Part shown: in pieces, positions 5,164 to 10,741 of the stretch
Layout of the letters: every line of letters begins with the position of its first letter
How positions within the stretch are numbered: the stretch's first letter is position 1
Notes under the pieces: model-generated
What the model was told of the DNA's origin: nothing
What the model saw: the letters and a program-made list of their open reading frames with translations, nothing else
Database searches by the model: none
DNA from: Bacteroides sp.
Lineage (GTDB): Bacteria > Bacteroidota > Bacteroidia > Bacteroidales > Muribaculaceae
NCBI GenBank assembly: GCA_014801815.1
Contig: JAAVDM010000039.1
Location: forward strand, 1 to 64,000
Length of the DNA stretch: 64,000 nt
Direction of reading: 5' to 3'
Made by a program: the position numbers and the translations under genes

Positions 5164-7038
5164 TTGATATTTACAGCATTATGCAGTATCTTTGTAGCAT
5201 TGTTTTTAATCTCTTTCTTACTTATGAAAGCTTTCTGTGTGCATAAAACCGGATTGATAATATTAGCTTCAGCTATTTTTGTTGTTAGTCTGCTGTTATG
5301 GATACTGATTACCCGAAAAGCTGAAAGTCATTCAGTGGCACAGGAAATAGCGAAATATTCTGTTAAATTTTCAGAGTCACTTGGTAAAGATAGTGAGATT
5401 TTTTCTGACTCGCTAAAGAATCTTTTAACTGAACCTGTACGGCCGGATTCGATGGTTTACCGCTCTCTGCATACTTTCAGCCGTAGACTCTTTGAAAATG
5501 GTCTTCAGACCAAAGCGTTTGAATATCTGAAGACTTGTATTGATATTATTGATCGTGCGCCCGAAGTATCGGTACAGGATAACAGTTTCAAAGCAAAGTG
5601 TTATCTTTTGCTCGGAGCAGCTGCTGATGAGGTGGGTCTGCGTACATTAAGTCAGGACTATTATTTCACCGGGCTTAAAATTGCTGATAAATACGATAAC
5701 TCTCTTACCGGTGACTTCTTCAATAATATTGGTGTAAGTTATCTGAGGGCCGGTAAGACTGACCAAGCTGTCAAATATTATAATAAGGCTCTTGAAATTA
5801 GTTTTACACGTTCGGACAAATATCTTTCATATATCGTCTATACCAATCTTTCAGAAGTAGCCGTGCATGAAGCGGATTATGACAAAGCTATAGACTATGC
5901 GCTTAAGGCTATACAATGTGTAGACGAGAAAACCCGTTCTGCTGATTATTATTCAGCTCAGACTGTTATAGGAAGTCTATACACTTTTAAGAAAGATACG
6001 GTTATGGCGATGACTTATCTAAAAAATGCCTATCTGAATCAACTGAATGGGAATAATCCGTACTATTTATTTGATACTTGTCTGGCATTAGCCTCAGCGT
6101 TTGCTGATAATGGGAGAACAGACTCTGCCGCACGATATATCAGACAGGCTGCGGATATTGCAGCCGAAACCGGTAATCCTGCACAGCGTATGAGTGTGCT
6201 TGAGATAGAGGCAAACCGGGCACTTCAATATGGGAATCCTTTGAGAGCATATAAATTACAGAATAATATCATTGCTCTTAAAGATTCTGTATATCGTGAG
6301 GAGAATGCTACCCGCATCAGACAGGCACATGATATATACAATATTGAACGTGAGGCTAATATGCGGAATACAGGCATTTCTTCATGGAATCCGGTAGTGG
6401 TGTTTACCTCTATGACTGTTTTGGTAGGTATACTGATAATATTCATAGTGTGGATTTTAACTATGAAACGTAAGAAAGAACTTGCCGTAACTGAACGCGC
6501 TCGTGCGGTAGCCGAGCTTAACGAACTCCAGACAAAACAATTACGTGAAGAAAAAGAGATACAGCAGAAAATCAAATCTGACCTTGAGTTACATGAGCGG
6601 AAACTGACTTCGTTTACTCTTGACCGTATACAGACAAGTCAGAAGATAGAAGAAGTAGCTATGAATGTAAGGCAGATAATACTCGATCTTCCTCCACGTG
6701 ATAAACAGTTTCGTGACAGACTGAAAGAAATAGTTGCTCGGCTGGCTACACTTAAGAATGACTCTCAATGGGAAGAATTTCAGTACTATTTTGAACGTGT
6801 CCATCCTGAATTCTATGAATGTCTGGATAACAGACATCCGGGTTTAACTGTGAAAGATCGACGTCTGTGCGCCTTATTGTCACTCGGACTTTCAACCAAG
6901 GATATAGCCTCTCTGACATTTCGTGAAGTGCGAAGTGTGGAGTCTGCACGTAATCGTCTGCGTAAAAAACTTGGTCTTGATGTTGATACCAATCTGGTAG
7001 ATTATATTCTGTCCTTATCAAGAGGTATTAGTGAGTAA
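5164..7038 (+). CDS. TPR-containing membrane-anchored regulator with C-terminal LuxR-like HTH
   Basis: Two TM segments, TPR-like repeats (AVKYYNKALEISFTRSDKY), HTH-like LCALLSLGLSTKDIASLTFREVRSVESARNRLRKKLGL; TTG start. Confidence 0.75.
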   Translation: MIFTALCSIFVALFLISFLLMKAFCVHKTGLIILASAIFVVSLLLWILITRKAESHSVAQEIAKYSVKFSESLGKDSEIFSDSLKNLLTEPVRPDSMVYRSLHTFSRRLFENGLQTKAFEYLKTCIDIIDRAPEVSVQDNSFKAKCYLLLGAAADEVGLRTLSQDYYFTGLKIADKYDNSLTGDFFNNIGVSYLRAGKTDQAVKYYNKALEISFTRSDKYLSYIVYTNLSEVAVHEADYDKAIDYALKAIQCVDEKTRSADYYSAQTVIGSLYTFKKDTVMAMTYLKNAYLNQLNGNNPYYLFDTCLALASAFADNGRTDSAARYIRQAADIAAETGNPAQRMSVLEIEANRALQYGNPLRAYKLQNNIIALKDSVYREENATRIRQAHDIYNIEREANMRNTGISSWNPVVVFTSMTVLVGILIIFIVWILTMKRKKELAVTERARAVAELNELQTKQLREEKEIQQKIKSDLELHERKLTSFTLDRIQTSQKIEEVAMNVRQIILDLPPRDKQFRDRLKEIVARLATLKNDSQWEEFQYYFERVHPEFYECLDNRHPGLTVKDRRLCALLSLGLSTKDIASLTFREVRSVESARNRLRKKLGLDVDTNLVDYILSLSRGISE

Positions 7039-7170: not shown

Positions 7171-7728
7171 ATGGCAAAAGAATGGATCTGCACAGTATGT
7201 GGTTATGTAGCTGAAGGTGAGAACCCCCCCGCACAGTGTCCTCAGTGTAAGGCTCCTGCTTCGAAGTTTCGTGAACTCAATAAGGAAGAGCTGCTTGCTT
7301 TCGTCACCGAGCATGAGATTGGTATAGCCAAGGATGCCGATGAGGAAATGAAGAAGGATCTCAACAATCACTTTATAGGTGAGTGTACTGAGGTAGGTAT
7401 GTATCTGGCTATGTCACGCCAGGCCGACCGCGAGGGTTATCCCGAGGTAGCTGACGCATTCAAGCGCTATGCTTGGGAAGAGGCTGAACATGCCGCTAAA
7501 TTCGCCGAACTGCTCGGTGATATGGTGTGGGATACTAAGACAAACCTTGAAAAACGTATGAACGCTGAGGCCGGCGCCAATGCCGACAAGATGCGTATTG
7601 CCAAGAACGCTAAGGCTAACAATCAGGATGCTATCCATGACACCGTTCATGAGATGGCTAAGGATGAGGCTCGTCACGGCCGTGGTTTCTACGGCCTGTA
7701 CCAGCGTTATTTCGGCGACAAGAAGTAA
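7171..7728 (+). CDS. Rubrerythrin-family protein with N-terminal rubredoxin domain
   Basis: CTVCGY...CPQCKAP rubredoxin knuckles followed by a ferritin-like domain ([18 protein letters not shown]). Confidence 0.9.
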
Positions 7729-7756: not shown

Positions 7757-8173
7757 TCAACGATTATGAGAAGGACGGTGCGTTGCACTGTCCTTTTTAT
7801 TTTGACTGTCCTCTTCAAATTTTTGGCGGTGTTCAATAACTGTCTTCATGTTTTCCTGTGCCCACACAGTGAGTTGAAGTATTATGGGTATAAGGGAAGA
7901 ACCTGTGGCAGTCAGAGAGTATTCCACACGTGGAGGTACCTGCGGATACATAGTGCGTGTTATAAGACCATCGGCTTCGAGAGTCTTCAGAGTGTTAGAC
8001 AGTACCCGGGTTGACACATCGGGAATCAACCGGTTCAGTTCATTGAATCGTATAGGATTGTTTTCGCTGATCACAAGGAGTATCAGCAGTGCCCATTTGT
8101 TACCGAAACGTGCTATGACATTACGTACAGGACAGATTTCTATTATGGAGTTATATACCTCCTTTTTTCTCAT
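7757..8173 (-). CDS. HxlR-family winged-helix transcriptional regulator
   Basis: CPVRNVIARFGNKWALLILLVI...IRFNELNRLIPDVSTRVLSNTLKTLEADGLI. Confidence 0.87.
   Translation of the reverse strand: MRKKEVYNSIIEICPVRNVIARFGNKWALLILLVISENNPIRFNELNRLIPDVSTRVLSNTLKTLEADGLITRTMYPQVPPRVEYSLTATGSSLIPIILQLTVWAQENMKTVIEHRQKFEEDSQNKKDSATHRPSHNR
7771..7796 (+). terminator. Hairpin aaggacggtgcgttgcactgtcctt followed by T-rich tract
   Basis: Stem-loop plus T-tract after the rubrerythrin gene; lies inside the 3' end of the convergent HxlR gene. Confidence 0.6.
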
Positions 8174-8327
8174 ATTATTATTTTTTAGGCAGCAAAGTTA
8201 TTGTTTTTCGGCGACATAAATCATAAATTACAGCAGTTAATTTTTTTGATAATTTTTTGATTCATACAATAGTTTGTTTTTCAGTAAAAGTAATAAAAAA
8301 GTTACTATATAATAAAAAATTACCCTC

Positions 8328-8358
8328 TTGACATGACGGAATTAAATCGGTAATTTTG
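8328..8358 (+). promoter_or_regulatory. Bacteroidetes-type promoter (ttg ... taattttg) for the RiPP operon
   Basis: TAATTTTG matches the TAnnTTTG -7 box; TTG about 20 bp upstream. Confidence 0.5.
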
Positions 8359-8396
8359 CATTGTTAAATCAAAAATTAATTTCAATCCCAACGACT

Positions 8397-8573
8397 ATGA
8401 CACGTCTCAATGAAAGTGCTGTAAAGCACACTGCACAGGCCTATCTGTGTGCAGAAGGCGATCCTTGCAAACCTGCGGCTGCCTGTGGTTCATCATGTGG
8501 TGCCGGTGAGGAGAAGAGCGAACCAAAACCTGCAGCTGCCTGCGGCTCGGCCTGTGGCAGTGGTGAGAAGTAA
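8397..8573 (+). CDS. 58-aa Cys-rich repeat peptide, probable RiPP precursor (ACGX-type)
   Basis: MTRLNESAVKHTAQAYLCAEGDPCKPAAACGSSCGAGEEKSEPKPAAACGSACGSGEK; duplicated KPAAACGSxCGxGE unit; adjacent radical SAM/SPASM gene. Confidence 0.82.
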   Translation: MTRLNESAVKHTAQAYLCAEGDPCKPAAACGSSCGAGEEKSEPKPAAACGSACGSGEK

Positions 8574-8599
8574 ATTTCCTTCATCTTTCAATTTGGTAC

Positions 8600-8638
8600 G
8601 GCTCCGATGTCTTTCCGGTGGCCGGGAGCATCGGAGCC
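8600..8638 (+). promoter_or_regulatory. Intercistronic stem-loop between precursor and downstream genes
   Basis: ggctccgatg / catcggagcc 10-bp arms with nested ccgg...ccgg. Confidence 0.55.
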
Positions 8639-8665
8639 ACAGGTTTAATTGTTTGTCTTATACCT

Positions 8666-9043
8666 ATGACTAACGAATCAGAGCTTGAACATACGGGTAT
8701 TGTTTCGGAAAAACTTGCCGAAACCTCCGAGGCATGGAACGGCAGTCAGCTGCCCGCTTATTCGACCTCAAAACCTGTTGTTTCAATCTATAAATACATC
8801 TTTCCTCCCCATACGGTGACTAATCCGCATTATCATAAGGTGATAAACTGCGGTGTTGTGCTCAGTGGCACATTGACCATAGTCAATAAAGACGGCACTA
8901 CACATGATTTTCATGCCGGAGAGGCTCTTGTAGAGACTGACGGTGAGATACATCACGGTGAGAATCGTGGTGATGAAGATGCTGTTGTGATAATGTTTTA
9001 TGCCGGAGACGCAGATACTCCGCTTTCGATTCCAGCAGATTGA
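8666..9043 (+). CDS. Cupin-domain protein
   Basis: PHTVTNPHYHKVINCGVVLSGTLTIV...GEALVETDGEIHHGEN cupin motifs; ATG at 8666. Confidence 0.83.
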   Translation: MTNESELEHTGIVSEKLAETSEAWNGSQLPAYSTSKPVVSIYKYIFPPHTVTNPHYHKVINCGVVLSGTLTIVNKDGTTHDFHAGEALVETDGEIHHGENRGDEDAVVIMFYAGDADTPLSIPAD

Positions 9044-9049
9044 CCGATA

Positions 9050-10072
9050 ATGGAATATTTCGCTTTTCAGTGGCATATCACCGACAGTTGTGACCAACGT
9101 TGCGAACACTGTTATATCTTCTCCGAGGGACATCCGCATCTTATAGAGATGTCGCCGGAGAGGGCAAAAGAAGTAATAGAACAATGTGTGGAGATGTGCA
9201 GGAAGATGAATCTCCTGCCGTATTTTTATATCACCGGAGGTGATCCGATACTTCATCGTCATTTCTGGGATATTCTCTCTATGCTGAAAGAGCGTGGTAT
9301 TCCTTTTACGATTCTTGGTAATCCGTTTCATATCACTGATGAGGTGTGTGTCAGACTCAAGGCGTACGGCTGTGAGAAGTATCAGCTTTCCATAGACGGC
9401 ATGAGAGATACGCATGACTCCATACGTAAACCCGGTTCATTTGACACGACCGTCAGTAAGATTGATGTGCTTAAAAGAAATGGTATACGGGTAGCGGTCA
9501 TGACTACGGTCTCGGGTACCAATATAAAAGAGATACCTGATATAATAGATCTTGTGGTTGAAAAGGGTGTTAATGTTTTTGCTTTCGGGCGTTACTGTCC
9601 GACCTCAGAGGAGAAATCAACCCATATATCACCGGAAGAATATCGTGATTTCCTTGATACTGTCTGGAATAAATTTGAACAGCATAAAAATGCGGGGACT
9701 GTTTTCAATCTTAAAGATCACCTCTGGACACTCTATCTCTATGAAAAGGGTTTATTCCGAATCCCCGAAGACAGTAATCCGGATGCTATATACGATGGCT
9801 GTCATTGTGGTGACTGTCATTTCACGATTCAGCCCGATGGCAATGTGATGGCTTGCCGGCGTTTTGAGAGTGTGGTAGGTAATATGTTTCAAGAGCCGAT
9901 ATATAAACTCTGGAATAGTGAGGCAATGGAGGCATACAGACAGTATGAGCAGTTTGAAAAGTGTACCGGCTGTGAACTGTTCCGTTTCTGTCGGGGCTGT
10001 CCGGCAGTGGCCTATGGTTATCACCGCTCTTTTTATGCTCCTGACCCGCAATGCTGGAAAATAATTGGTTAA
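9050..10072 (+). CDS. Radical SAM/SPASM domain peptide maturase
   Basis: DSCDQRCEHCYIF (CxxxCxxC); C-terminal Cys-rich SPASM region CRRFESVVGN...CTGCELFRFCRGCPA. Confidence 0.93.
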   Translation: MEYFAFQWHITDSCDQRCEHCYIFSEGHPHLIEMSPERAKEVIEQCVEMCRKMNLLPYFYITGGDPILHRHFWDILSMLKERGIPFTILGNPFHITDEVCVRLKAYGCEKYQLSIDGMRDTHDSIRKPGSFDTTVSKIDVLKRNGIRVAVMTTVSGTNIKEIPDIIDLVVEKGVNVFAFGRYCPTSEEKSTHISPEEYRDFLDTVWNKFEQHKNAGTVFNLKDHLWTLYLYEKGLFRIPEDSNPDAIYDGCHCGDCHFTIQPDGNVMACRRFESVVGNMFQEPIYKLWNSEAMEAYRQYEQFEKCTGCELFRFCRGCPAVAYGYHRSFYAPDPQCWKIIG

Positions 10073-10098
10073 AACCTTAAAAACAATTATACAGAAAT

Positions 10099-10674
10099 AT
10101 GCTTATTGATTTGATAAAGTCACGACATTCAATCCGCAAGTACACCGACCGTCAGATAAGTCGTGAAGATATGGAGAAGATACTTATTGCCGGTGAGTAT
10201 GCTCCTAACGCAGGCGGCGGTCAGCGCAGTATGCTTGTCGGGGTTCTCAATAAGGAACTGACTACGAAAATCGGTCTTATGAATATGGCCCGTTTCGACC
10301 GTTCTCAACTTATCGGAGGTCATGTGTCGGCTGAACAGCCCAGTGTCATTGATGATAAGAAGATGATAAACGGTTTTTACGGTGCGCCGGCTGTAGTGAT
10401 AATATTCGGTCAGTCGAATTTTCTGTTCCGTGAAGCTGATGCTTTCTGCTGTGCTGAAAACATGGTGCTGCAGGCTACCGAACTGGGAATAGCCTCCTGT
10501 ATCGTGTCACGGGCACCGGAGACATTCCTGAGTCTTGAAGGTCAGCAATTACTCCGCGAATGGGGAGTACCTGAAAATTATCTTGCTACTTGTTTTGTTA
10601 TCCTCGGCTACATAGACGGTCCCCAACCGCACACCAAACCTCGTCGTCCTGACCGTATAAAGATAATAGAGTAA
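10099..10674 (+). CDS. Nitroreductase-family protein
   Basis: SRHSIRKYTDRQISREDMEKIL...ATELGIASCIV...LGY. Confidence 0.9.
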   Translation: MLIDLIKSRHSIRKYTDRQISREDMEKILIAGEYAPNAGGGQRSMLVGVLNKELTTKIGLMNMARFDRSQLIGGHVSAEQPSVIDDKKMINGFYGAPAVVIIFGQSNFLFREADAFCCAENMVLQATELGIASCIVSRAPETFLSLEGQQLLREWGVPENYLATCFVILGYIDGPQPHTKPRRPDRIKIIE

Positions 10675-10683
10675 AATCAGAAC

Positions 10684-10741
10684 CTGTCAAAATACACGGT
10701 GCCCCTACCTATGTAGGCAGGGGCACCGTGTATTTTGACAG
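10684..10741. terminator. Bidirectional hairpin terminator, 23-bp perfect stem
   Basis: ctgtcaaaatacacggtgcccct / aggggcaccgtgtattttgacag between convergent genes. Confidence 0.9.

Follow-up and report, generated by a model that had tools for sequence, protein, structure and literature searches.

A probably redox-linked setting for the ACGX radical SAM peptide system, with an exchangeable reductase

The window, by which is meant the whole stretch of 64,000 nucleotides analysed, has on one strand four ORFs, for a small precursor peptide, a cupin, a radical SAM (rSAM) enzyme and a nitroreductase, separated by gaps of 92, 6 and 26 nt. A preliminary description had these four closely spaced, co-directional genes, the two near-identical units of the 58-aa peptide and the strong terminator at 10684, and all of them are there as it gave them; it omitted the divergent hxlR gene and the inverted repeat that lies just before the promoter. 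In the following list, features without a score or E value are read directly from the sequence.

7757-8173, - strand: HxlR/DUF24-type regulator, divergent from the operon (PF01638, E 4.5e-29), with the Cys14 codon at 8132-8134
8300-8324, no strand assigned: inverted repeat immediately preceding the promoter, AGTTACT-N11-AATTACC, a candidate operator
8328-8333 and 8351-8358, + strand: probable promoter, TTGACA and TAATTTTG box
8397-8573, + strand: ACGX precursor peptide, 58 aa (TIGR04341, 14.8 bits, below the cut-off of 28; orthologues pass; under purifying selection)
8469-8516, + strand: repeat unit 1, KPAAACGSSCGAGEEK
8526-8570, + strand: repeat unit 2, KPAAACGSACGSGEK
8666-9043, + strand: single-domain cupin, an occasional accessory (PF07883, E 5.8e-13)
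9050-10072, + strand: radical SAM/SPASM maturase, 340 aa (TIGR04340, 551.7 bits; AlphaFold2 pLDDT 89.3)
9089-9112, + strand: rSAM CX3CX2C motif
9800-10054, + strand: SPASM cysteines
10099-10674, + strand: nitroreductase-family flavoenzyme, 191 aa (PF00881, E 1.1e-19)
10684-10741, no strand assigned: likely terminator, 28-nt inverted repeat between convergent genes (dG -48.5, z -11.4)

The promoter boxes are of the type known for Bacteroidetes. A single promoter for the whole operon can only be inferred, since the TTGACA/TAATTTTG site is not among the sites listed by a consensus promoter scan of the window. At the other end, the inverted repeat is not accompanied by a T run. A strong hairpin after the nitroreductase gene is also present in the sister locus L034 (about 5605-5654), its sequence being unrelated to that in the window. 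The cupin and the nitroreductase themselves are ordinary members of PF07883 and PF00881.

The maturase is an unambiguous member of TIGR04340, 'rSAM_ACGX' (551.7 bits against a cut-off of 400), so the family name first proposed for the system holds, and the repeat peptide that precedes it is of the kind named in the companion model, TIGR04341. A scan of one genome per species gave 80 loci, in many families of Bacteroidota and in Bacillota, and it is to these 80 named loci, together with the window, that the neighbourhood counts refer. The 297 genomes of the window's own family contain 18 members, its own included, with the G-numbered genomes of that family, which partly repeat named loci, being left out of the counts. 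Among 396 genomes across the phylum only the window's own is over the cut-off, a thin sample that gives no estimate of prevalence for Bacteroidales. Leaving aside loci truncated by the end of a contig, almost all of the 80 have a Cys-Gly-repeat peptide before the rSAM gene; in L101, L109 and L111 no such precursor is seen. Across the loci, the conserved system is precursor plus rSAM and not the four-gene unit. The window departs from the system as named in that its peptide falls below the TIGR04341 cut-off, in that it adds a cupin, and in having a nitroreductase where most relatives have a quinone oxidoreductase. A literature search found no paper naming ACGX, TIGR04340 or TIGR04341 and none joining HxlR, radical SAM and RiPP, and a Bacteroidales RiPP survey makes no mention of ACGX, HxlR or nitroreductase. 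ACGX is a named but uncharacterised family, and the locus is real and a member of it.

The precursor in the window has two KPAAACGS(S/A)CG(A/S)GE units. Its TIGR04341 score, like those of L034 (13.1 bits) and L097 (20.1 bits), is low, with six other orthologues scanned reaching 32-71 bits; it is because most scanned orthologues exceed the cut-off that the window peptide is counted in the family. Distinct precursors range from 41 to 103 residues with 3-8 CG units, and hardly any residues other than G, A, C, S, K, P, E, D and T occur in their core. Leaders are of an AQ-(A/S/G)-Y-L type in many Bacteroidota and of a MAL-(S/K)-N-L type in Bacillota, and given this difference between phyla the repeat itself is the feature held in common. 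Its most rigid element is the immediate surroundings of the 364 core cysteines: A or S stands before 97.5% of them, and G after 99.7%. The repeat core is under strong purifying selection, with a pN/pS of 0.10 against 0.38 in the leader (among 57-aa precursors). With the same repeat next to the same enzyme in nearly all 80 loci, and with codon changes constrained in this way, the repeats in the window are not a chance match.

The most constant neighbour of the precursor and rSAM core is the gene for the HxlR regulator, present in about 80% of loci. Where there is enough flank to judge (75 loci), it is divergent in 51 and at the operon end in six; in three an Rrf2-type gene takes its place, and 15 have neither close by, several of these with an HxlR gene somewhat further away. 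As the genome of the window has only four HxlR genes, its proximity to ACGX is not a matter of chance. The three exceptions (L103, L105 and L106) are Bacillota in which the Rrf2-type regulator is upstream of the precursor. The best NCBIfam match of the HxlR protein in the window is to the redox factor RrpA, at 80.6 bits and so below the cut-off of 185. An N-terminal cysteine, Cys14, is conserved in 62 of 62 ACGX-linked HxlR proteins and occupies the same position as Cys14 of HypR, a DUF24-family regulator in which it is the redox-sensing residue that responds to thiol stress, the regulons of that family including nitroreductase-type enzymes (PMC6943732). The HypR-HypO and YodB-YodC thiol-stress regulons are similar in sensor type, N-terminal cysteine and nitroreductase-type enzyme, but no RiPP is known in them. 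GGTTACT-N12-TGTAACC, or a near-match to it, lies just upstream of the promoter in about 20 close relatives, and it is only among close relatives that the operator repeat is conserved. A search of the window's own genome with the pattern gave no more matches than a reversed-pattern control, and no wider regulon was defined by it. The upstream repeat is best regarded as the footprint of a candidate operator, which is no proof of binding. Two other neighbours are seen on the regulator side. A rubrerythrin gene precedes hxlR in the window (7171-7728); L034 alone keeps it at this position (99% identity), and L046 has one nearby. It fits an oxidative-stress neighbourhood, but is outside the ACGX module. 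About 11 loci have a DUF5131 (PF07505) gene, which adjoins hxlR or lies at another place close to the ACGX operon; in L036, L042, L063, L064 and L096 it is upstream of hxlR.

A third gene could be assessed in 72 loci with room for one. In 39 of them it is a PIG3-like quinone oxidoreductase gene after that for rSAM (five with a PNPOx-ferredoxin flavoprotein), in 21 a nitroreductase gene (six with PNPOx-ferredoxin) and in four a nitroreductase gene placed upstream; three have PNPOx-ferredoxin alone and five have none. On a tree of 79 rSAM sequences the MDR or nitroreductase label changes at least eight times, and the well-supported branches force 7 to 9 gains or losses; the enzyme in this slot has been swapped at least that often. 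The window and L034 are a nitroreductase pair inside a large quinone-oxidoreductase clade, and theirs is a recent swap made with the precursor architecture unchanged. A reductase exchanged while the precursor is not argues for a common small molecule, and not the peptide, as its substrate. The cupin and nitroreductase had been expected to be conserved with the precursor and rSAM pair. For the cupin that expectation fails: it lies between precursor and rSAM in six of 76 loci, with at least five changes on the tree, and some further loci have close homologues at a different nearby position. The nitroreductase bears it out by half, being one of two interchangeable oxidoreductases. The combination of the two is a local variant.

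Other accessory genes come and go. Sir2 and/or macrodomain genes, recognised by Pfam and BLAST clustering only, are in 14 loci from both phyla, with the two as a pair beside oxidoreductases in, for example, L069, L074 and L102. The known SirTM/Zn-macrodomain pair has its role in the response to oxidative stress (PMC4518038, PMC11490716). The likeness is in that pairing beside oxidoreductases in some ACGX loci; the published extended operon differs in having GcvH-L and LplA2 and no RiPP, and the pair is absent from the operon in the window. In L086 a gene is inserted between precursor and rSAM (-828 to -7 relative to rSAM), of a cluster that is found near five loci, and judged by eye it looks like ketopantoate hydroxymethyltransferase. 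Among the neighbours of the 80 loci no exporter or transporter, peptidase, immunity gene or RRE recurs.

The rSAM enzyme carries the CX3CX2C motif and an invariant set of SPASM cysteines. In the AlphaFold2 model its rSAM core begins at residue 3, without an RRE-like N-terminal domain; with none fused in the model, and with no small conserved co-directional gene recurring widely among the loci, no RRE is indicated. Structure comparison of the model finds the fold most like those of TigE, SkfB, SuiB, PqqE and anSME, a resemblance that does not fix the reaction. After its own family, the best match of the window enzyme is to the model for SbtM, the thio(seleno)oxazole maturase (TIGR04082). Of the characterised NCBIfam models this is the nearest, and all 31 aligned members match it. 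SbtM is likewise an rSAM/SPASM enzyme acting on peptide cysteines, but the 192.6 bits are below the cut-off of 350 and the match is confined to the C-terminal part (198-504 of 516), so that chemistry in common is not established.

SbtM converts Cys to thiooxazole with loss of 4 H (PMC11002830), and the MNIO-made 5-thiooxazole peptides, though unrelated to ACGX, have repeated xCG units, as in EGKCG (PMC12668002). With the nearest characterised family making thiooxazoles, the prediction becomes -4 Da per Cys and not -2 Da. If the module is redox-linked, a product of the thiooxazole type is somewhat favoured. What thiooxazoles do not explain is the D or E found at +4 of the last-in-pair or single core Cys in 183 of 212 instances (86%; shuffled mean 55, max 81), a count in which repeats are not independent samples; it is kept in 30 of 42 distinct pentamers although positions +2 and +3 vary. 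An acidic residue so placed is what a maturase making PapB-like ranthipeptide thioethers would need within the same redox module: in CX3D/E it would link Cys with C-beta of Asp or C-gamma of Glu, and in each CGxACG pair the first Cys would stay a free thiol. PapB acts on six such CX3D/E motifs (PMC9413430). The spacing is the point of likeness to the PapA/PapB system, from which ACGX differs in its maturase, outside the PapB family (67.7 bits with NF047865, whose cut-off is 340) and nearer by far to SbtM. An acidic partner would be lacking for the first Cys of each pair, which is nevertheless equally conserved; the motif is missing from single units of some Bacillota precursors (CGAASPEE); and the RRE thought to be used by PapB-type maturases is absent. 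Thioethers of this kind are a rather doubtful product. The thiooxazole reading, which like its thioether rival we infer, is given about twice the weight, and the two now make sharply different predictions: -4 Da with absorbance at 305 nm for each Cys, or -2 Da for each CX3D/E.

On the observed gene content and its conservation, the identity of the regulator, the exchange of partners and the lack of a recurrent export, protease or RRE gene, ACGX is quite likely a redox-linked module, which probably serves against redox stress inside the cell and not as an antibiotic. The explanation preferred, at a probability of about 0.5, is a cytosolic RiPP module inducible by redox stress or electrophiles, with an SbtM-like maturase and a reductase. 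An HxlR-type thiol switch, through Cys14, would control an operon whose products are a Cys-Gly-repeat peptide, the rSAM/SPASM maturase and a reductase dependent on NAD(P)H. In the (A/S)-Cys-Gly units the maturase may oxidise Cys, most likely to thiooxazole-type heterocycles as SbtM does, and the product would be a multivalent, sulfur-rich peptide remaining inside the cell. The reductase, a nitroreductase in the window and a quinone oxidoreductase in most relatives, might clear the same electrophiles or oxidants, or hold the peptide in its working redox state. In this proposal inducibility, chemistry and the role of the peptide are all conditional, and the redox reading has against it that about a quarter of loci are without an adjacent HxlR gene and that a few Bacillota have the Rrf2-type one.

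Other roles for the same genes have less in their favour. Direct use of the matured peptide by neighbouring oxidoreductases as their redox cofactor or carrier, as mycofactocin is used by its dehydrogenases, is suggested by the NAD(P)H or flavin oxidoreductases, from different families, that mostly occupy the partner slot and by the match of rSAM_ACGX to the mycofactocin maturase model (95 bits); it is unlikely with no recurrent peptidase to free a small cofactor, with multi-unit repeats unlike one-site cofactor precursors, and with the same reductase kinds generally known to be widespread without ACGX. Similarly improbable is a metal (copper) buffer, a cytosolic thiooxazole peptide otherwise like bufferins and captophorins. 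It would suit the repeated xCG units and the relationship to SbtM, and known thiooxazole peptides bind copper (PMC12452194, PMC12668002), but the recurrent neighbours include no recognised copper gene, the precursor has no apparent signal peptide, whereas bufferins act in the periplasm, and HxlR is not a metal-sensor family. Captophorins, bufferins and oxazolin do resemble ACGX peptides in their repeated Cys-Gly units and in being rich in lysine and glutamate; they differ in coming from Pseudomonadota, with an MNIO and a DUF2063 partner, a signal peptide and a periplasmic copper role, and neither an MNIO enzyme nor its partner is among the operon's Pfam matches or the scanned neighbour clusters. 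The preliminary description saw the cupin and nitroreductase as possible tailoring enzymes or redox partners. The tightness of the operon around them (6-nt and 26-nt gaps) is compatible with dedicated tailoring of the peptide to a more complex RiPP, but so sporadic a cupin and a reductase swapped between unrelated folds over a constant precursor architecture make it quite improbable. A secreted antimicrobial or signalling peptide has the RiPP-type operon as its one attraction and is very improbable; a secretion or bacteriocin role was rejected because export and protease genes, like an immunity gene, do not recur.

Going beyond the preferred explanation of an inducible cytosolic module, one may tentatively picture ACGX peptides as cytosolic, redox-stress-induced poly-thiooxazole peptides made by rSAM, a radical-chemistry counterpart of the copper-binding captophorins that would provide thiol and electrophile defence in gut anaerobes, alongside quinone or nitro reductases that can replace one another and, in certain hosts, SirTM-type ADP-ribosylation. 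If true, this would be a RiPP serving redox defence within the cells of anaerobic gut bacteria. For a pair previously named but unexplained, the thiol-sensing regulator, the exchangeable detoxifying reductase and the occasional Sir2 and macrodomain genes give a concrete, testable role; new here are the redox setting of the family, the reductase exchange and the paired predictions for the modification.

Small ORFs that recur opposite or overlapping the precursor were set aside, as they look like mirror reading frames of the repeat and not genes. A different type of variant is the divergent precursor of L095 (about -300 relative to rSAM), in a locus whose rSAM is on a long branch. It has SSGCGV units, without ACGxxCG pairs, and could serve to test which features of the repeat are required.
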